Below, in pieces: positions 11,288 to 20,636 of a DNA stretch of 64,000 nt; position 1 is the first letter of the stretch, and each line of letters starts with the position of its first letter. Made by a program: the position numbers and the translations under genes. A model generated the notes under the pieces. It worked only from the letters and a program-made list of their open reading frames with translations. It was not told the origin of the DNA and ran no database searches. The stretch covers positions 1 through 64,000 of the forward strand of contig PCAK01000028.1 of the NCBI GenBank assembly GCA_002730525.1. The letters run 5' to 3'. Source of the stretch: Acidobacteriota bacterium. GTDB lineage: Bacteria; Acidobacteriota; Vicinamibacteria; Vicinamibacterales; UBA823.

Positions 11288-11986
11288 TCAGGCAGGTCGC
11301 TCGGCCCTCTCGACCAGCAAGGTCACGATCTCATCGAACGACACCGACCCGCGTCCCTCGAGCGCCTGCGCCAGACACCCGGTCAGGTTGGCAACGGCGA
11401 AGCTGATTCCCTGCAGGTTACGTGACGGCGGCACGCCGGGAATCGGCCGGGGGAAGCCAGACGCCGCGAAGATGACCACGCCGTCACGGCGGCTGCAATG
11501 GTAGGTTTCACGCGGGCAGTCCCAGTCGACGGCGACCGGCACGACGCCGGGCAGGCTGCCCGGTAGCCACTGCGTTGCGCCGTCGGCGGCGGCGGCCACG
11601 ACGACCGCGCCGCGAGCCGCCGCGTCCCGCACCGCACCGCCCAGTGCCTCCGCGTGTGCCGCGTTCGCCGTACCGAGGCTCAGGTTGATCAGCTGCGCGC
11701 GCGCGCGTGCCGCCCACCCGATCGCCGCGACCAGCCCTTCCACGCTCGTCGACAGCTCTCGGTCGAAAACCTTCGCTGCGTAGATTTCGCTCCGGGGCGC
11801 CTTCTCGCGGATGACCGCGGTCACCGCGGTGCCGTGGCCGAGGCGGTCGATGAAACCAGGGTGCTCGGCGCCATCCGCCGCGACGCCGACCCCGCCGGCG
11901 ACGCCGGCGACGTGGGGGTGATCGGCATGCACGCCGCTGTCTACGACCGCCACGCGGACCGGCCCTACGTCAGCCTTGGCCATCAT
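11288..11986 (-). CDS. qhpE: Subtilisin-like protease QhpE, QHNDH gamma-subunit leader peptidase
   Basis: A compact 232-residue S8 protease with no signal peptide. The catalytic triad is visible: Asp16 in VAVVDSGVHADH, His51 in RLGHGTAV and Ser195 in LQGISFAVANLTG. In the known QHNDH pathway the cytosolic QhpE removes the leader of the cross-linked QhpC. The short length, lack of export signal and position after the exporter gene qhpF fit that role. The ATG overlaps the qhpF stop by 4 bases. It is the last gene of the locus and converges on the AttH-like gene with a 15-base gap. Confidence 0.88.
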   Translation of the reverse strand: MMAKADVGPVRVAVVDSGVHADHPHVAGVAGGVGVAADGAEHPGFIDRLGHGTAVTAVIREKAPRSEIYAAKVFDRELSTSVEGLVAAIGWAARARAQLINLSLGTANAAHAEALGGAVRDAAARGAVVVAAAADGATQWLPGSLPGVVPVAVDWDCPRETYHCSRRDGVVIFAASGFPRPIPGVPPSRNLQGISFAVANLTGCLAQALEGRGSVSFDEIVTLLVERAERPA

Positions 11987-13719
11987 GCGTCGGCGGGTGA
12001 CGCCCCCGTACCGAACACACGGGCAAAGGCGCCGTCGCCTGCCATCAGTTCGGCCGGCGAGCCCTCCTCGGCCAGCCGGGCCCCGTCGAGAACGATCACC
12101 CGATCGGCTTGCCGCACCATCTCCAGCCGGTGAGAGATGATGACCGTCGTCCGGCCGCGCATGAGCGCGCCGTACCCGGCGATCACCTGGCGCGCCGTCG
12201 AGGGGTCGAGCGCGGCGGTCGGCTCATCGAGGACGAGGACGGCCGGCTCGGCGAGAAACGCCCGAGCGATCGCGATCCGCTGCCGTTCACCGGCGGACAG
12301 CGCACGACCACGTTCGCCAACCTCGGTCTCCATCCCGTCTGGTAGCCCAGCCACGAACGCCTCCAGCCCGGCGGCGCCGAGGGCGGCGGCGACGCCGGCC
12401 TCGGTCGCTTCCGGACGCGCGTAGCGGAGGTTCTCGGCCAAGGTCGCGTGAAAGATGAACGGATCCTGATCGACGAGCGCCACCTGTCGGCGAACCTCCG
12501 CCAACGGCAGCGCCTTCAGATCCTCGCCGTCGAGCAGGACGCGGCCCGCATCGGGATCGATCAGGCGCATCAACAGGTCGGCGAGCGTCGACTTGCCGCT
12601 GCCGCTGGGTCCGACGACGGCGAGGACCTCGCCCGGGGCAACGTCCACCGACACATCGTCGAGGGCGGGCCCACCGCGGTTGAACGAGACGGTCACATGA
12701 TCGAGCGTGATTCGACCGCGCACCGGCGCCAGCGCTCCGCCTCCGGCGCGATCCTCGACCTCGACGTCGGCATCCAGCAACTCGTGCACACGCCCGAGCG
12801 AGACCTTGGCTGTGGCCAGGCTCGCATAGAGCCCCATCAGCGCCTGCAGCGGCGGCAAGACGCGCATCTGGTACGCCATGAACGCCACGAGCGTCCCCAT
12901 CGTGATCGTGCCGTCGATGACCCGGCTGCCGCCGTACAGGAAGACGACGGCCGTACTGCCCGACAAGATCAGCCCCGGCAAGCCGCCAGACAGGTAGGTG
13001 ACCCATTGCATCGACATCAGGGCCTCGACGAACGCGTCGTTGCGGCTGCGGAAGCGATCGGCCTCACGCGCCTGGGCGTTGGAGGTGACGACCAGCTTCA
13101 TCCCCTGGATCGTTTCGATCAGGAAGCTGCCGATGTCGGCGCTGCGGGCGCGGACCGCGCGGACCCGGCCCTCGAGCCGCCGCCGGTAGCGCACCAGCGC
13201 CCAGAGGCTCGGCGGCAGCAGGAGGGCGCTGACGAGAAAGAGCCGCAGGTCGAGCCAGATCAGCATGCCGAGTGAGCCGACCAGGAAGATCACGTTGCCC
13301 AGCGTCGCCAGCACGGCTTCCGACGCGACACGCTGGATCTCGCCGATGTCGTTGTTGATGCGCGAGACGATGTCACCCAACCGGGTCCGCGCGTAGAACC
13401 GGGGTGACAGCCGCTGCAGGTGCTGGTAGAGCGCTAGCCGCATGTCGAAGAGGATGGCAGCCGACACCCGTGTGTAGCGCAGACCGCTCACGACATTGAA
13501 GGCGAAACTCGCGAGGGTGATCAGGACGAACGTGAGGACGATCCGCCGCAGTGCGCCGGTGTCGCCGCCGAGCAGCGCGCCGTCGACGAGGGTGCGGGAC
13601 AGATAGGGTACGTAGAGCGCCAGTCCAGTGCTGGCCAGACTGAGCACCAACACCAGCAGCAGCCGGCGCCAGTACGGCGCCACGTACGCCAGCGCGCGGC
13701 GAAACTGGGGATCGAGCAC
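11983..13719 (-). CDS. qhpF: ABC exporter QhpF (MsbA-type, fused membrane and ATPase domains)
   Basis: A 578-residue half-transporter. The membrane domain has six predicted helices (roughly residues 18-300, including RLLLVLVLSLASTGLALYVP and RIVLTFVLITLASFAFNVV). The nucleotide-binding domain has Walker A GPSGSGKST (370-378), Q-loop VDQDPFIF, signature LSAGE near 475 and Walker B VLVLDEPTAALD, followed by an HRLEM switch. On its own it would be called a lipid or peptide exporter. Between qhpB and qhpE it matches QhpF, which moves the processed gamma subunit to the periplasm in QHNDH biogenesis. Confidence 0.88.
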   Translation of the reverse strand: MLDPQFRRALAYVAPYWRRLLLVLVLSLASTGLALYVPYLSRTLVDGALLGGDTGALRRIVLTFVLITLASFAFNVVSGLRYTRVSAAILFDMRLALYQHLQRLSPRFYARTRLGDIVSRINNDIGEIQRVASEAVLATLGNVIFLVGSLGMLIWLDLRLFLVSALLLPPSLWALVRYRRRLEGRVRAVRARSADIGSFLIETIQGMKLVVTSNAQAREADRFRSRNDAFVEALMSMQWVTYLSGGLPGLILSGSTAVVFLYGGSRVIDGTITMGTLVAFMAYQMRVLPPLQALMGLYASLATAKVSLGRVHELLDADVEVEDRAGGGALAPVRGRITLDHVTVSFNRGGPALDDVSVDVAPGEVLAVVGPSGSGKSTLADLLMRLIDPDAGRVLLDGEDLKALPLAEVRRQVALVDQDPFIFHATLAENLRYARPEATEAGVAAALGAAGLEAFVAGLPDGMETEVGERGRALSAGERQRIAIARAFLAEPAVLVLDEPTAALDPSTARQVIAGYGALMRGRTTVIISHRLEMVRQADRVIVLDGARLAEEGSPAELMAGDGAFARVFGTGASPADA

Positions 13720-13738: not shown

Positions 13739-14842
13739 TCAGCCTGGCGGCATGACGATCAGGCCGGTCATTGTGGCGTCGGCTTCAAGTTCGAGCGTAC
13801 GCAGGTGCTGGAAGGTATCGGCCTCGTAGATGTCGATCGTCTGGCCGGCCCCATAGACATAGAGCAACTGGCCGTTCGTGCTCGGCTTGATCGACATCCG
13901 CGGACGGCCGTTGAAGCGCTGCCGATCGCCCAGCCGACGATTCGCCAGGTCGAACGACCAGAATTCGTAGTTGCCGATTTCCTGGACCAGGCCGTACGCC
14001 ATCGTCCCGTCCGCCGTCACACTGAAGCTGACGCCCGTGGCCGGCCCGAGGGTGTAGAAGTCCTCGACTTCCTTGGCATTGAGGTTGACCCGGGCAACAC
14101 CCATCTGACGGCCGTCCCGCACCGGCGACGCCACGGTGAACAGACTGGTATAGAAACCGAACTCCTCGGTCAGGCTGCCCGAGAATCCGAACCGCAGCGG
14201 CTCGAGGCCCGACTCGACCGGCTCCGACAGGTCCCAGCGGTCGGTCTCGGTGAACCCATCAGTCTCGTAGATCACGACCTCTCCGCCAAAGATGTAGAGC
14301 AGCGAGCCGTCGGGCGAGAACAGCATGTTCAGCCGAGGCCGCGCCTCTTCGTCGGGCCAGGGAATCGTTCGGATCTGCTGGTGCGTCGACAGGTCGTACT
14401 GGGCAAATTCGGGTTCGCCGATCTCGAATCGGTCGATGAGCTTTGTTCTGGACTGGGTGACGAACAGCGCGTACCGCTCCTCGGGGTCCACCGCGTAGCT
14501 CTCGATCCGCGTCCGCTCGTACCTGCCACTGAGCCTGAAGCTGTCGATCGTCGACCGACCCGCGATGTCGATGATCTCGAAAAACTCCGCCGTCACGTCG
14601 CTCATGTAGAGGTGCTTGCGGTCAGCGGAGAGCATTAGGTTCCCCGGGATGCCGGACGTTACCTGAATCTCGTCGACAACCTGCTCGGTCGCCTCGTCGA
14701 TGACGTAGATCTTGCCGGCATACCCCCCGATGTAGAGCGTGCCGTTGCCGCCTCTCAACTCAGCGCCGTCCTGCGCCTCGGCGAGTACACCGACTAACGC
14801 GAACGCCACGGCCAGGCAGACGATGCGAATCAGAAGTGCCAT
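13739..14842 (-). CDS. qhpB: Quinohemoprotein amine dehydrogenase beta subunit (seven-bladed propeller)
   Basis: A 367-residue secreted beta-propeller. The signal peptide is ALLIRIVCLAVAFALVGVLA ending AEAQ. YVTN-type blades follow: GTLYIGGYAGKIYVIDEATE, NLMLSADRKHLYMSDVTAEF, MLFSPDGSLLYIFGG and SIKPSTNGQLLYVYGAGQT. In QHNDH the beta subunit supports the active-site gamma subunit and the diheme alpha subunit. ATG 14842 is preceded by GAGGA and starts the signal peptide; the extra 24 residues of the longer frame are Arg/Ser-rich noise. It lies 22 bases after qhpC. A generic propeller call would be possible without this context. Confidence 0.9.
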   Translation of the reverse strand: MALLIRIVCLAVAFALVGVLAEAQDGAELRGGNGTLYIGGYAGKIYVIDEATEQVVDEIQVTSGIPGNLMLSADRKHLYMSDVTAEFFEIIDIAGRSTIDSFRLSGRYERTRIESYAVDPEERYALFVTQSRTKLIDRFEIGEPEFAQYDLSTHQQIRTIPWPDEEARPRLNMLFSPDGSLLYIFGGEVVIYETDGFTETDRWDLSEPVESGLEPLRFGFSGSLTEEFGFYTSLFTVASPVRDGRQMGVARVNLNAKEVEDFYTLGPATGVSFSVTADGTMAYGLVQEIGNYEFWSFDLANRRLGDRQRFNGRPRMSIKPSTNGQLLYVYGAGQTIDIYEADTFQHLRTLELEADATMTGLIVMPPG

Positions 14843-14864: not shown

Positions 14865-15218
14865 TCACGGGAAGATGAGATCGATCTTCCGCCAGTCCTT
14901 CTGAGCCGACGCACAGGTGGCCGTCCAGTCCGGCGCGTGATTCAGCTGGTCCGGCACCTGGGCAGGCCAGAAACACCCCAGATGGCAGTCGAACAAATCG
15001 CGTTCGACCGGCGAGCAGAGCCCGGCGGTACCGCCCTCGACGTCGACTTCCCACCCCGGGAAGAAGACGAACGAGCATCCGAGCGGCACGTGGACGTCAG
15101 GTCTGAGCGGGGCCTGCTGCAGCGCCACGACCTCGCCGCTGGCCGCGGCCTCGGCTGCTGCTTCAATGTGCCGCTCGACCCGATCGGCCTTTTGATTAAC
15201 TGGCTTGAGATGCTTCAT
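14865..15218 (-). CDS. qhpC: Quinohemoprotein amine dehydrogenase gamma subunit precursor (CTQ-bearing)
   Basis: A 117-residue precursor that becomes the small catalytic subunit carrying cysteine tryptophylquinone. By alignment from memory with the Paracoccus/Pseudomonas protein, all cross-link partners are present: Cys48-Glu57, Cys68-Asp74 and Cys82-Asp90 for the thioethers, and Cys78 with Trp84 for CTQ. The blocks PGWEVD, GLCSP, DLFDC and CFWPAQVPD are strongly conserved. The first ~41 residues (helical, Ala/Glu-rich) form the leader recognised by QhpD and cut by QhpE. They look longer than the 28 residues I recall for Paracoccus. Oddities: Phe53 where the described proteins have Asp12, and an extra Cys102. 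The gene overlaps the end of qhpD by 23 bases. Confidence 0.93.
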   Translation of the reverse strand: MKHLKPVNQKADRVERHIEAAAEAAASGEVVALQQAPLRPDVHVPLGCSFVFFPGWEVDVEGGTAGLCSPVERDLFDCHLGCFWPAQVPDQLNHAPDWTATCASAQKDWRKIDLIFP

Positions 15219-16665
15219 CGGTCACTCGTCCTTCGAAACGCGCGAGATATGCCGGGTTGCGCTCGGCCAGCTCGCCGTAGATACGGAGACAGACATCGGT
15301 CCACTCGCGGATCCAGTCGCAGTAGTGCAGGTTCGGGGCTTCGGTCGTGCCGTAACGCGTCTGCGCCTCGTGGTAGCAGCCGCCGGCGCACAGCGGCCTC
15401 GCCCAGCACGTCCGGCAGTCGGTCTTGTTCTCGATGTGATGGCGGTCGAGGAATTCGGCCTGACGCTCGCGATCGATTCCGTCGGTCACCGAGCCCATCG
15501 AGTGATCCTCGGACCCGGCAAACCGGTGGCACAACGCCACCTGGCCATCGGTCGCAACGCCCATCAGCCCGAGTCCCGCGCCGCACCCGTAGGCCTTGCT
15601 CACACCCTTGTGAATCTCCTCGAGCGTGTCCTTCACGTTCGCAAACGCATGGTGGCGATTCTCGACGGCATGGTCGCGGAACTCCTCGGCCAGGTCGCGG
15701 AACTGCCCGAGCATCGTGTCGAACCCGCCATCCTCGATGGCGTACTGCCGGTCGGGCGACGTCGTGACCGGCGCGAAGCCGACTTCCCGGAAGCCGACCT
15801 CTTCGGTGAGATGCCGGAACATCCGGTGTACGTCCAGCGTCTTCGACGTCAAGGTGACCCGAGCTCCGATCGGCTTCGTGCGGTGTCGCCGCAGCAACTC
15901 CTTGATCTTCGGCATCGCGACATCGTAGCTGCCGGCGCCGCTGTGGAAGACGCGGAACGTGTCCTGCATCTCCTGGGGTCCATCGATCGAGATGGTGACC
16001 GCGACGTCGTTCTCGACCAGGAAATCGATGGCATCCGGCTTGAGCAAGGTGCCGTTGGTCGTCAGGTTGAACTCGACCCGCTTGCCCAACTCGATCGCGC
16101 GCTGTCGCGCGTAGGGAATCGCCACCTTGAGGACCGGCAGGTTCAGCAACGTCTCGCCGCCGAACAACGTCATGTGGACGACCTTGTTCGGACCCGCCTC
16201 GCGGAACATGAAGTCGACACTCTGCTTCGCGGTCAGGGCCGACATGAACTTCGGCTGCGCGCCGTTGGCCGTGTCGACGATCTTGTCTTCACCGTACTCG
16301 TAGCAGTACGCGCACGCCAGGTTGCACTGATTGGTGACGTTCATCACCATCGTCGTGAGCGGGAACGGTTCGAGCGGAATGACTTTCGGTATCTCCGGCG
16401 ACGCCTGGTCCACCGGTGCCACGGCCTGGACGCGCACCAGCTCGTCGAGGCCCTCATCCAGCGCCGCGGCCGGCCAGCGCGGCTCGAGCGCGGTCATGAC
16501 GTCGTCACGCGAACGCGGTTCGGGCTCCAGCAGATCGAGGATCGCGCGGCTGGGGTCGTCGAGCGCAAAGATCGCGGCGTTCTGCAGGTACAGGAACGCC
16601 TTGCCGGCCGCTTCGAACCGGTGCAGGTGTCGCGTCCTGAAACACGGCGCTGTCTCGGCTTCCAC
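15196..16665 (-). CDS. qhpD: Radical SAM/SPASM thioether cross-linking enzyme QhpD
   Basis: A 489-residue radical SAM protein. Cys114, Cys118 and Cys121 (CNLACAYC) bind the SAM [4Fe-4S] cluster. A SPASM region follows (CGAGLGLMGVATDGQVALC, then CRTCWARPLCAGGC) for the auxiliary clusters. An N-terminal ~100-residue domain probably binds the QhpC leader. In the known pathway QhpD makes the Cys-Asp and Cys-Glu thioether bonds in QhpC. The start is GTG 16665, which shares one base with the qhpA stop (TAGTG). It overlaps qhpC by 23 bases, so enzyme and substrate are translationally linked. Confidence 0.94.
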   Translation of the reverse strand: MEAETAPCFRTRHLHRFEAAGKAFLYLQNAAIFALDDPSRAILDLLEPEPRSRDDVMTALEPRWPAAALDEGLDELVRVQAVAPVDQASPEIPKVIPLEPFPLTTMVMNVTNQCNLACAYCYEYGEDKIVDTANGAQPKFMSALTAKQSVDFMFREAGPNKVVHMTLFGGETLLNLPVLKVAIPYARQRAIELGKRVEFNLTTNGTLLKPDAIDFLVENDVAVTISIDGPQEMQDTFRVFHSGAGSYDVAMPKIKELLRRHRTKPIGARVTLTSKTLDVHRMFRHLTEEVGFREVGFAPVTTSPDRQYAIEDGGFDTMLGQFRDLAEEFRDHAVENRHHAFANVKDTLEEIHKGVSKAYGCGAGLGLMGVATDGQVALCHRFAGSEDHSMGSVTDGIDRERQAEFLDRHHIENKTDCRTCWARPLCAGGCYHEAQTRYGTTEAPNLHYCDWIREWTDVCLRIYGELAERNPAYLARFEGRVTDEASQAS

Positions 16666-18368
16666 TACCGCCCCATCTCCCAGGAATCGAATCGCATGTA
16701 GAGCGGGACGGTCACGATCAGCAGCGCGCGCGCACGGAGCTCCGTGTCGCTGCCCTCGGGCATGAACGCCGCCACGACCCAGACGTCGCCGATGTTGTTT
16801 CGGTTGCCGTCTCGCTCGGGGTTCGGACCGTCGACAGCCGGCGTGAACATCCCGGCCTGGTCGATTCCGCCGACGAACCGAAGGTCCTCATCGCCGTAGG
16901 TGGCGGAGTACTCCTCGAGGCTCCACGTCGGCTCGACCAGGCCAAGGTTCAGATCGTCGGCGGTGCCCGACTCGCCATCGGGTCCGTCGTGCCACGCCAC
17001 CGTGTCGAAGTACTCGTACTGCTTCGGGATGACGACGCCCCCCACGCGTGCCATTCCGCGAGGCGGATCGACCGTGATCCGATCGACCTGGTCGTACACG
17101 ACCAGCGCGCCGGCTCCCAGCGCTCTGCCGATGCGAACATCACGGGCGCCGACGATCGCGCCGTCGGCCACGGTAACCCTGACCGTCGCGGTGCCCGGCG
17201 TAACGCTCACTACCTCGGACACATCGACACCGGCGCCCAGGTCGACGTCGGCCGCCGACAGCATCTCGGGCAGGTTCGCGCCGTGGATCCGGATCTCCTG
17301 CTCACGACCCGACGTCCTCACACCGCGCGGCTGAACGCCCGTGATGACCGGCACGTCATCGACACGCGTGAGCGTGACATCGAGGCCGATCTCGTCGAAC
17401 GCGCCGCGATACCACCGGCCGGAAATCTCGCGCCAGTCGCGATCGACGAACATTACCTGGCGCCAAGCGGCGTCCTCAGCTGCGGCGTCCGACGAGCCCC
17501 TCCACTGGAAGCCGGTATAGACAATCGCACGGCCGGTGTGGGCCACCGTCGCGCCCTCGCGCGGATATTCGAGGGTCGTCTCGGTCGTGAACTCGCTGTC
17601 GCTACCTGGAACGGCGGTCACCGTCATCTGCCCAAAGACCGGACCGCGGCCCGGCTGGCGCCCCGACACGGCCCACGACCCGGCGAGCTGGGGCGAGCGC
17701 ACGTTGGCCGCCCACGCGGACCACGCCGACGTATGGAGCGGGAAGACCTCGCTCAGATGATCGATCGCGCGGTTCATCGGGTGCCGGCGCCTGGGCGTCT
17801 CACCCTCCGCGGGCGGCTCGCGCCCAACCATCCCGTTCTCGAGAAACCCTTGGCGATCGGAGAACGGGTAGTAGCCGCGGTGCATCGCCACAACCAGCTC
17901 CCACTCCTCCTGGGTGCGGCGCTGGTTGAGAATCCGCCCCATCGAATGGCAGGCACTGCACGTCGCTTCCGTGTCGCGATCGGCTTCGTACTCGAACTCG
18001 ATCAGCCGCCGCTCGACTTCGAATGCACCGGCCCGCGCTTCCTCGGGTGCGAGCCCGAGATCGTTCGAGAGGTACCGCACGATGTCTCGCGCCTCGTCAG
18101 GATCGATCACCATGTCGTTCAAGGTGACCATCCGCCGGATCGTCTGTTGCCACCCTTCGGGCGTCGTTCGTCGGTAGGAAATTCGGGAGAGAATCTGCGG
18201 GTCGTCTGTGGCGTGGCAGACGCCGCACGCTTCGACCACCACCGGACTCTCGATCGGGATCCCGGCTGGCGCCTCGTCGGTCTGCGCGGCCACCGTGAGC
18301 GGCATCCACGCCGCGAACAAGACCAGGACGGCTCTCGTGGCTATCGTCATCGGCTTCGGTATCTGCAT
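16665..18368 (-). CDS. qhpA: Quinohemoprotein amine dehydrogenase alpha subunit (diheme cytochrome c)
   Basis: A 567-residue exported protein. The signal peptide is TRAVLVLFAAWMPLTVAAQ. Two heme c sites follow, CGVCH (48-52) and CSACH (137-141), then the long beta-rich C-terminal domains with GVQPRGVRTSGREQEIRIHG and PPRGMARVGGVVIPKQYEYF, as in QHNDH alpha subunits. It passes electrons from CTQ to soluble periplasmic carriers. ATG 18368 or 18350 both give the signal peptide; upstream codons are not family-like. It lies 117 bases after qhpG and directly abuts qhpD. Confidence 0.92.
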   Translation of the reverse strand: MQIPKPMTIATRAVLVLFAAWMPLTVAAQTDEAPAGIPIESPVVVEACGVCHATDDPQILSRISYRRTTPEGWQQTIRRMVTLNDMVIDPDEARDIVRYLSNDLGLAPEEARAGAFEVERRLIEFEYEADRDTEATCSACHSMGRILNQRRTQEEWELVVAMHRGYYPFSDRQGFLENGMVGREPPAEGETPRRRHPMNRAIDHLSEVFPLHTSAWSAWAANVRSPQLAGSWAVSGRQPGRGPVFGQMTVTAVPGSDSEFTTETTLEYPREGATVAHTGRAIVYTGFQWRGSSDAAAEDAAWRQVMFVDRDWREISGRWYRGAFDEIGLDVTLTRVDDVPVITGVQPRGVRTSGREQEIRIHGANLPEMLSAADVDLGAGVDVSEVVSVTPGTATVRVTVADGAIVGARDVRIGRALGAGALVVYDQVDRITVDPPRGMARVGGVVIPKQYEYFDTVAWHDGPDGESGTADDLNLGLVEPTWSLEEYSATYGDEDLRFVGGIDQAGMFTPAVDGPNPERDGNRNNIGDVWVVAAFMPEGSDTELRARALLIVTVPLYMRFDSWEMGR

Positions 18369-18485: not shown

Positions 18486-20003
18486 TCAGCGATTCTTCAG
18501 GGCACCGGCGGCCAGCAACAGCGACAGCGCGCCCAGAAAGTCGGGAAGGCCGACCTCCGGGTGCCGGTCGTTGTAGACCTCGAACAGATCGGGCACCTGA
18601 TCGCAGTCGCCCGCCATCCCCACGAGCGCCGGCAGATCGACACCCCGGACGAACCTGACCGCGGTGGGCGGAATGGCGGGGGTCTCGAGGCGCAGGCGCG
18701 CCTCCAGCACGACCTCGCGTCCGGCGATGCCCGGCTGGCGTTCGATGCGCAGACGATCCCCCGGCACGAAGTCGATCCCGGACCGCTGCTTGAGATCGCC
18801 GAAGGCGGCCCGCACCGTCGGGTCGCCGCGCAGCGTCTCGACGTCGATCGCCGCGGGCGGTTGCATGCCGAGACCGGCCAGATCGTCTCCGACGGTGGAC
18901 CGCCCCGCCCAGAATGGATGGTCATGAGCGGTCGCCGCATCACCGAAGTAGTCGGCCGCCTGACGGGCGAAGCTCGTGACGACCTCGGCCTCACGTGCCG
19001 CGTAGAATCCGCGAGCCGGCTCGGCCATCTCCGGTCGGGTGAGGCAGGTGTTGGCGACGATGGATGCCATCCAGGCCGACGCAATCGCCTTCTTCACGCC
19101 GAAGGACGAGAGCGGGTCGATGAACGAGGCGGCATCGCCCACCAGCAGGCACGCGGGCGCCGAATAGCGTTCGGCCGCATAGACCGACGCGTCACAGGCC
19201 CACGGCTCGATTGCCAGGGTGGCGCCCTCGGTCAGGCCGGCGAGTCGCTGCGTCTTGGCGAGTTCGACGCGGTAGGTATCCGCGAGATTGCCGCCACGCT
19301 CCAGATCGGTCGCGCGCGGGTCGACCATGACGGTCAGGTAGCGTCGCGACGCGCTGACCGGCACCGACCAGGCCCAGCCGTCCCGATACGCTTCGACGAG
19401 CGTATGGCTCGGTTCGGAAAGAGGCCAGCCCGACGCGCGGTCCCAGATCGCGACGATCGCCAGCGTTGCCGGGCCGTCGCCATATCGACGGAAGCCGTGC
19501 CGCGCGACGACGCCGGCTCGGCCGGAACAATCGAGCACGATCTGCGCGTCGACGCGAGTGTCACCGCCGCCGTCGGCCACACCCACGACGGCGCGACCCT
19601 CAGCGAACTCGACACGCTTGACCATCCGTTCGCTGATGCGGGCGCCTGCCGCCTCGGCCTGCGACCTCAGCAGTCGATCGAAACGACGCCGCTCCACCTG
19701 GTGGCCGAACGCGCCCTCGGCGAACCTCTCCGACCGGGACTCGCCGTCGCCCCACCAGACGGTGTTCCCCGTCGACCGGTAGAACCCCGCGGCGTCGACT
19801 GCCTCGAGCACCCCGACAGCGCGGAAGAGCTTCCGGCAGCTAGGTGGAATCGACTCGGCGAGGGTTGGAGCGTCCGACTCGGGCTTCGTGAAGACGAGGA
19901 CCGCGTGTCCCCAGGCGGCCAGTAGGTGCGCGGCCACCGCTCCGGCCGGGCCGCCGCCGACGATGACGACGTCCGAACTGGCGGGCAACTGCCGGGATAC
20001 CAT
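18486..20003 (-). CDS. qhpG: FAD-dependent tryptophan hydroxylase QhpG of CTQ biogenesis
   Basis: A 505-residue flavoprotein of the tryptophan-halogenase/PHBH-like class. The FAD fold GGGPAGAVAAHLLAAWGH lies near the N-terminus, with a middle motif LDCSGRAGVVARHG and the second FAD motif LLVGDAASFIDPLSSFGVKKA. In QHNDH biogenesis QhpG adds oxygen to the CTQ-precursor Trp of the cross-linked gamma subunit. It is the first gene of the cluster, behind a TATAAT box. ATG 20003 matches the family start; the open frame further upstream is antisense to the divergent phosphoesterase gene. Confidence 0.9.
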   Translation of the reverse strand: MVSRQLPASSDVVIVGGGPAGAVAAHLLAAWGHAVLVFTKPESDAPTLAESIPPSCRKLFRAVGVLEAVDAAGFYRSTGNTVWWGDGESRSERFAEGAFGHQVERRRFDRLLRSQAEAAGARISERMVKRVEFAEGRAVVGVADGGGDTRVDAQIVLDCSGRAGVVARHGFRRYGDGPATLAIVAIWDRASGWPLSEPSHTLVEAYRDGWAWSVPVSASRRYLTVMVDPRATDLERGGNLADTYRVELAKTQRLAGLTEGATLAIEPWACDASVYAAERYSAPACLLVGDAASFIDPLSSFGVKKAIASAWMASIVANTCLTRPEMAEPARGFYAAREAEVVTSFARQAADYFGDAATAHDHPFWAGRSTVGDDLAGLGMQPPAAIDVETLRGDPTVRAAFGDLKQRSGIDFVPGDRLRIERQPGIAGREVVLEARLRLETPAIPPTAVRFVRGVDLPALVGMAGDCDQVPDLFEVYNDRHPEVGLPDFLGALSLLLAAGALKNR

Positions 20004-20067
20004 GGTGAGAACCAGCGGATCCGGCACAGCGGGTCGACAGCGTGCCGGAGAGACGACTGGCCGGGAA

Positions 20068-20073
20068 ATTATA
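20068..20073 (-). promoter_or_regulatory. -10 box of the qhp operon
   Basis: A perfect TATAAT on the minus strand, about 65 bases before ATG 20003. The -35 region is poor, which would fit activator dependence. No AraC-type QhpR gene is in the window. Confidence 0.42.
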
Positions 20074-20126
20074 CGCTGGCCACCGACGAGGCCCGGGCCG
20101 GTCGAGTGACAGCCCCCGAAGGATCG

Positions 20127-20636
20127 ATGACAATTGGGCCGACGATGCAGATCGCCATCATTTCGGACATCCACGATCGGCGCGATCACCTGGCCACCGT
20201 GCTCGACCAGGTGTCCGGCGCCGATCTGCTCATCTGCTGCGGCGATCTCTGCTCGCCGTTCATCGTCGTGCAGCTCGGTGAGGGATTCCACCGGCCGATC
20301 CACGTCGTCTTCGGCAACAACGACGGCGATCTCTTCCGCATTTCCCAGCAGGCCAGCCGATTCTCGCATCTGACCCTGCACGGCGAATTCGCGGAACTCA
20401 CGTGCGACGGCAAGCGGATCGCCGTCAATCACTTTCCGGAGATCGCCCGCGCCCTGGCAGCCTCCGATCGCTACGACCTGGTCTGCTACGGGCACGACCA
20501 TCAGCATGCGATCACCGCGGACGGTGAGACCGTCATCGTGAACCCCGGCGAGGTCTACGGCGGCTTAAGCGGCACCGCGAGCTACGCCGTGTACGACACC
20601 GCGACGGGCGTGGCCGAGCGACGCGCTCTCGACTGA
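20127..20636 (+). CDS. Metallophosphoesterase (YfcE/MJ0936 family)
   Basis: A 169-residue calcineurin-like phosphoesterase. The metal-site motifs appear in order: ISDIHDR (Asp14, His16), CGDLC, FGNNDGD and CYGHDHQH, ending in VNPGEVYGGLSG typical of YfcE-type phosphodiesterases. The substrate is unknown. ATG 20127 has AAGGA 5 bases upstream; ATG 20145 is an alternative. It is divergent from qhpG with a 123-base gap. Confidence 0.9.
   Translation: MTIGPTMQIAIISDIHDRRDHLATVLDQVSGADLLICCGDLCSPFIVVQLGEGFHRPIHVVFGNNDGDLFRISQQASRFSHLTLHGEFAELTCDGKRIAVNHFPEIARALAASDRYDLVCYGHDHQHAITADGETVIVNPGEVYGGLSGTASYAVYDTATGVAERRALD

Follow-up and report, generated by a model that had tools for sequence, protein, structure and literature searches.

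Is the gamma subunit of quinohemoprotein amine dehydrogenase encoded in this MAG-type genome of the Acidobacteriota a variant of the proteins already described, or does it represent a second kind of QhpC? The question is raised by a phenylalanine in place of a described aspartate, by an additional cysteine and by an extended N-terminal part. The identity of the gene is itself ordinary: by sequence family, qhpC encodes a predicted CTQ-bearing gamma subunit. Within the window (the whole stretch of 64,000 nucleotides that was analysed), the reading frame is intact (117 aa, 14865-15218, minus strand), and its product passes both PF08992 (108.7 bits; cut-off 25) and the QhpC equivalog model NF037958 (123.1 bits; cut-off 50). 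No other gene of its genome matches PF08992, and the sole phmmer matches obtained with QhpC as the query were the solved gamma subunits 1jju_C and 1jmx_G. Membership is also given by the operon: qhpA, qhpB, qhpD, qhpE, qhpF and qhpG all lie alongside on one strand, in a complete set ordered G, A, D, C, B, F, E that runs on the minus strand from 20003 down to 11288, with qhpC overlapping the end of qhpD:

18486..20003, minus strand: qhpG, flavin-dependent peptidyl-Trp dihydroxylase (NF049967, 256 bits; cut-off 240)
16665..18368, minus strand: qhpA, diheme alpha subunit (TIGR03908, 472 bits; cut-off 274; four Pfam QhpA domains)
15196..16665, minus strand: qhpD, radical SAM/SPASM thioether-forming maturase (TIGR03906, 528.6 bits; cut-off 453)
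14865..15218, minus strand: qhpC, gamma-subunit precursor of 117 aa (PF08992, 1.4e-31; NF037958, 123.1 bits)
13739..14842, minus strand: qhpB, divergent beta-propeller subunit (TIGR03907, 3e-13, 49.6 bits against a cut-off of 223)
11983..13719, minus strand: qhpF, ABC exporter (ABC_membrane and ABC_tran; operon position)
11288..11986, minus strand: qhpE, subtilisin-like leader protease (NF049966, 163.8 bits; cut-off 165; Peptidase_S8)

QhpD is intact, with ten of the ten conserved cysteines present, and the start of qhpA was set at the ATG that precedes the signal peptide. The reading frame listed for qhpG (18486-20507) is too long, since the family match sets in only at residue 180 and the protein probably starts near residue 169; a real extra N-terminal domain is absent from QhpG. 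Because QhpB and QhpE fall below the curated cut-offs, automatic annotation may leave both without names.

The mature part of QhpC is about 47% identical to that of QhpC from Paracoccus denitrificans (1JJU/1PBY) and Pseudomonas putida (1JMX/1JMZ). In mature numbering (window residue number minus 41), the thioether pairs C7/E16, C27/D33 and C41/D49 and the CTQ pair C37/W43 are all in register, so that the equation of Cys48/Glu57, Cys68/Asp74, Cys82/Asp90 and Cys78/Trp84 with the four described cross-links, made in the initial annotation, is confirmed by the alignment; the eight residues are invariant in 91 of 91 aligned sequences. Also common to these proteins are the start of the leader (MKHL..NxKA), the (E/D)VVA motif and the set of operon genes. 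The protein described here differs in having Phe for Asp12, in the extra Cys61 and Asp72, in the loss of Asp39, in the replacement of Trp42 by Phe, and in a predicted mature N-terminus that is about 9 residues longer. Both substitutions singled out at the outset are where they were said to be: in a gap-free alignment Phe53 falls on Asp12 of 1jju_C and 1jmx_G, while Cys102 is an extra cysteine opposite Ala61 in both chains.

15060..15062, minus strand: codon of Phe53 (mature position 12; Asp in the solved gamma subunits), placed by alignment

How far these differences extend was surveyed in QhpC sequences drawn from the window's relatives and phylum, species genomes, plasmids and Pseudomonadota samples, with a search pattern that ignored positions 12, 61 and 72. 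We aligned 102 distinct mature sequences, 17 of the Paracoccus/Pseudomonas type (group 1) and 85 from Acidobacteriota, Gemmatimonadota and sphingomonads (group 2), proportions that are biased to group 2 and that sample group 1 thinly, the genome scan having covered the 80 best of 555 relatives. In group 1, Asp12, Asp39 and Trp42 are each found in 17 of 17 sequences, position 61 is Ala (16) or Val (1) and never Cys, and position 72 is Gln (8), Gly (6), Asp (2) or Glu (1). Group 2 has Ser (54), Ala (9), Phe (8), Asp (5), Thr (3), Gln (2), Leu (2), Tyr (1) or Met (1) at position 12, mostly Leu, Val, Ile or Met at position 39, and Phe (66), Tyr (14), Trp (4) or Gly (1) at position 42. Cys61 and Asp72 are present in all of group 2, in a sampling that could have missed a group-2 sequence lacking Cys61 or a group-1 sequence bearing it:

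14913..14915, minus strand: codon of Cys102 (mature position 61), the lineage-invariant extra cysteine (85/85 in group 2, 0/17 in group 1)
14880..14882, minus strand: codon of Asp113 (mature position 72), possible acceptor for a fifth cross-link (85/85 in group 2, 2/17 in group 1)

Cys61 is encoded by both cysteine codons (TGC in 69 sequences, TGT in 16). In the QhpD tree, built from 99 rows, it corresponds to one change, the split between the groups being supported at 100; on the same tree Asp72 changes three times, Asp12 twice and Trp42 once. The possibility, raised with the first reading of the locus, that Cys102 is random variation among close relatives is thus answered by its presence in 85 of 85 sequences and its single change on the tree. 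Judged from these columns, QhpC almost certainly belongs to a second lineage in which Cys61 and Asp72 are invariant. The lineage is apparently undescribed, its novelty not being certain: a lineage-wide extra Cys with a matched Asp was not described in the literature searched, most subscription papers lying outside its scope, nor did that literature yield experimental data on group 2, and we found no structural or biochemical work on QHNDH outside the Paracoccus/Pseudomonas lineage in the literature within reach. A Novosphingobium plasmid carries a group-2 QhpC, and in Novosphingobium a methylamine dehydrogenase heavy-chain-like gene (L095:4218-5525, minus strand) adjoins the qhp operon. The QhpB of group 2 is strongly diverged from described QhpB.

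Four loci of one Acidobacteriota genus (L144-L147, the same as L021/L038/L142/L143) are mosaics in which Cys61 and Asp72 occur with Asp12 and Trp42 retained; it follows that Cys61/Asp72 and the loss of Asp12 have separate histories. At one of these loci an aldehyde dehydrogenase and an AMP-binding enzyme flank the qhp operon (L144:8448-10001, L144:11963-13621); an aldehyde dehydrogenase beside the operon is also found in Paracoccus and Leisingera.

The N-terminal extension had been ascribed to a long leader of about 41 residues, and most of that claim does not stand, because the cleavage site was misplaced. The mature chains 1jju_C and 1jmx_G start at precursor residue 29, just after (E/D)VVA. 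In the QhpC described here the cleavage motif, (D/E)VVA followed by L/M, reads GEVVA followed by LQQ and aligns with the known mature starts, which predicts, by homology of the motif, a leader of 32 residues against 28, the remainder of the supposed leader belonging to the mature N-terminus:

15123..15218, minus strand: predicted leader, residues 1-32 (MKHLKPVNQKADRVERHIEAAAEAAASGEVVA), whose cleavage motif corresponds by homology to the point where mature 1jju_C/1jmx_G begin

The predicted mature chain has 15 residues before Cys7, 9 more than the 6 of the solved chains, and the extra length would sit chiefly in the mature N-terminus rather than in the leader. Across group 1 the leader has 28 residues (25 in one sequence) and the N-terminal segment 6-7; the ranges predicted for group 2 are 20-42 and 6-22.

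What Cys61 does is the central question. A further cross-link, suggested in the initial annotation, is a reasonable hypothesis, given an invariant Cys61, a co-invariant Asp72 and no partner cysteine in QhpA or QhpB; from these patterns we infer both the thioether and its partner. An extra conserved cysteine with a conserved acid C-terminal to it is what we found (Cys61 and Asp72, each in 85 of 85 sequences), and Cys61 is never replaced by Ser. In the table of alignment columns, Asp72 is the sole acid that is invariant in group 2 yet rare in group 1, and since both residues are kept in the mosaics, the pair is more than a component of the core package of group-2 residues. The known links made by QhpD join a Cys to a later acid (7-16, 27-33 and 41-49, with spacings of 9, 6 and 8; PMC8172795), a direction with which Cys61, preceding Asp72, agrees. 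Moreover, a single peptide receives six Cys-Asp links from PapB, a relative of QhpD (PMC8172795), and an additional link by QhpD would thus be chemically ordinary. The six S-Cbeta thioethers of the ranthipeptide freyrasin (PapA/PapB) also make more than three Cys-Asp links per chain feasible; the likeness lies in the chemistry, PapA being a small secreted peptide whereas QhpC is a cofactor-bearing enzyme subunit. Cys61-Asp72 (Cys102-Asp113) is the likeliest additional QhpD-made thioether, an assignment that we make tentatively and at less than an even chance.

Several observations bear on how far this assignment can be pressed. The spacing of 11 between Cys61 and Asp72 is beyond the known 6-9, and two group-1 sequences have Asp72 but lack Cys61. 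Fisher's test of the association between the two residues returns 4e-16, which is not a valid probability, as Cys61 is one change on the QhpD tree and its association with Asp72 therefore counts as one event. If residues 57-73 formed one continuous helix, the side chains of Cys61 and Asp72 would lie about 16 Å apart and could not be linked. The AlphaFold2 models of the full precursor (76 rows; pLDDT 60, pTM 0.28, no PDB match) and of a group-1 mature chain (37 rows; pLDDT 52, pTM 0.35) are too poor for geometry; one such low-confidence model (pTM 0.28 and 0.35 for the two) has helices at 98-105 and 109-114.

The main rival to the Cys61-Asp72 thioether is a free, buried structural thiol that packs the C-terminal segment of the gamma subunit (WTxKCAxAQKDWRKID), Asp72 being kept independently of it, in a salt bridge or as a helix cap. 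The whole segment differs between the groups (Lys60, Ala62, Ala64, Lys66 and Asp72), so that Cys61 may be one packing change among others; group 1 has a small residue there (Ala in 16 sequences, Val in one), and the low-confidence model places Cys61 in a helix. However, in 85 sequences from three phyla Cys61 is never exchanged for Ser, Ala or Val, an invariance that is unusual for a residue with a packing role in a protein of the periplasm, and we regard the buried thiol as possible but doubtful. Another acid could also serve as the partner of Cys61, most plausibly Asp67, which is invariant in group 2 and whose spacing of 6 equals that of Cys27-Asp33 (PMC8172795); but Asp67 is nearly invariant in group 1 as well (15/17), where there is no Cys61 and it must have another role, which makes this an unlikely partner. 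Asp36, gained in 72 of 74 sequences, was rejected as a partner, being absent from mosaics that have Cys61.

A conserved cysteine without an internal disulfide partner, in a periplasmic complex, could alternatively form a disulfide that joins two alpha-beta-gamma complexes or ties the subunit to some other periplasmic protein. Mature QhpB has no cysteine in the window and mature QhpA has just the four of its CxxCH heme motifs; within group 2, QhpB lacks cysteine in 56 of 78 sequences, and QhpA has the heme cysteines alone in 69 of 74. There being no general partner cysteine in either subunit, a disulfide within the complex is not the general answer, and the intersubunit disulfide sought in QhpA and QhpB is not supported. 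Two cysteines do occur in 13 of 78 group-2 QhpB, but this is a minority, the positions are common to 12 and 10 sequences and the likely pairing is between the two; in most complexes a candidate partner is missing, and a disulfide of Cys61 appears very improbable. QhpD (15196-16665) has an extra cysteine of its own at residue 459, ten residues past the last SPASM Cys, in 78 of 83 group-2 rows; the position is Gly in 16 of 16 group-1 sequences, and the Cys is absent from the mosaics L144-L147. Possible roles are those of a cluster ligand or of a residue related to the substrate; it was rejected as the Cys61 counterpart, the mosaics carrying Cys61 without it. Taken as a whole, the cross-link included, the locus is best explained by a CTQ-bearing gamma subunit of a second lineage in which Cys61 is functional and forms an extra QhpD-made thioether, a reading that we hold with some reserve, as falling just below an even chance.

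Position 12 leads to a different conclusion. Asp12, placed close to CTQ in the initial annotation, is present in 17 of 17 group-1 sequences and mostly missing in group 2, and its replacement by Phe had been thought to alter the substrate pocket or a proton path. This idea is weakened by the free variation of the position: nine residue types in group 2 indicate relaxed constraint, and Asp33 (Asp74 here), which has been suggested as a catalytic residue, does not vary. A lost maturation contact with QhpG accounts for the absence of Asp12 at least as well, and a changed pocket or proton path now seems unlikely. Nor does Phe at position 12 mark a deep clade, since it is found in the clade of the window's own family (with L039-L042) and separately at L048, L052 and L092; from its distribution, Phe12 is a local variant at a relaxed position. 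In the same family, the locus L008 (G002 contig 112) has two qhpC genes about 1.5 kb apart, one with Phe12 and the other with Ser12.

The surface acids Asp12 and Asp39 of QhpC are listed among the residues assumed to meet Arg47, Arg70, Arg307 and Arg314 of QhpG (PMC7876137). We mapped these arginines through 7ctq_A (they are R47, R70, R307 and R314 once 2 is subtracted from the chain numbering). QhpG of the window scores above the NF049967 cut-off (256 bits) and shares the GGGPAG motif with P. putida QhpG (7CTQ), whose proposed docking patch includes Arg47 and Arg70. Both arginines are present in 10 of 10 group-1 sequences, whereas group 2 has Ser (44) and Asn (41) in their place; Arg307 is mostly kept. 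Six Arg positions of QhpG are invariant in group 1, and three are lost in group 2. The combined loss of Asp12/Asp39 and Arg47/Arg70 fits a changed QhpC-QhpG docking surface, with which it is consistent rather than proof of it, the loss of charges being a single clade-level contrast in QhpG at low identity between the groups. That the lineage has both four QhpD-made thioethers plus CTQ (a total of five cross-links within some 80 residues) and, with the Asp12/Asp39-Arg47/Arg70 charges lost, a different QhpC-QhpG docking is possible, though as a combination we put it well under an even chance. Operons of Bryobacter and sphingomonads that were suspected of lacking QhpG are explained by strongly diverged QhpG-like reading frames adjoining qhp. 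In this branch no QhpG scores above the cut-off, and the neighbouring frame (L163:11178-12215, L095:11439-12557, L105:11285-12337) aligns with the QhpG profile from about 154 to 370 of 423, in the C-terminal part; at L163 the GxGxxG FAD motif seems degenerate, and the product may be a strongly altered QhpG.

In the maturation pathway that we propose, QhpD would place Cys-Asp/Glu thioethers onto the leader-bearing QhpC precursor, as in the described enzyme, QhpG would dihydroxylate Trp84, QhpE would cleave the leader after Ala32 and QhpF would export QhpC. Asp33 (Asp74 here) is retained as the presumed active-site residue, and Asp12 would be dispensable in the second lineage, Phe being one of nine residues there. 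Cys61 (Cys102) would give one more QhpD-made thioether, with Asp72 (Asp113) as the best candidate acceptor, for a total of four thioethers plus CTQ.

With its invariant extra cysteine, the second lineage offers a direct test of the number of thioethers that QhpD makes per chain and of the rules that govern their spacing. Likewise, the groups divide cleanly at Asp12 and Asp39 and QhpG changes to match, which provides a natural test of the published model of QhpC-QhpG docking.
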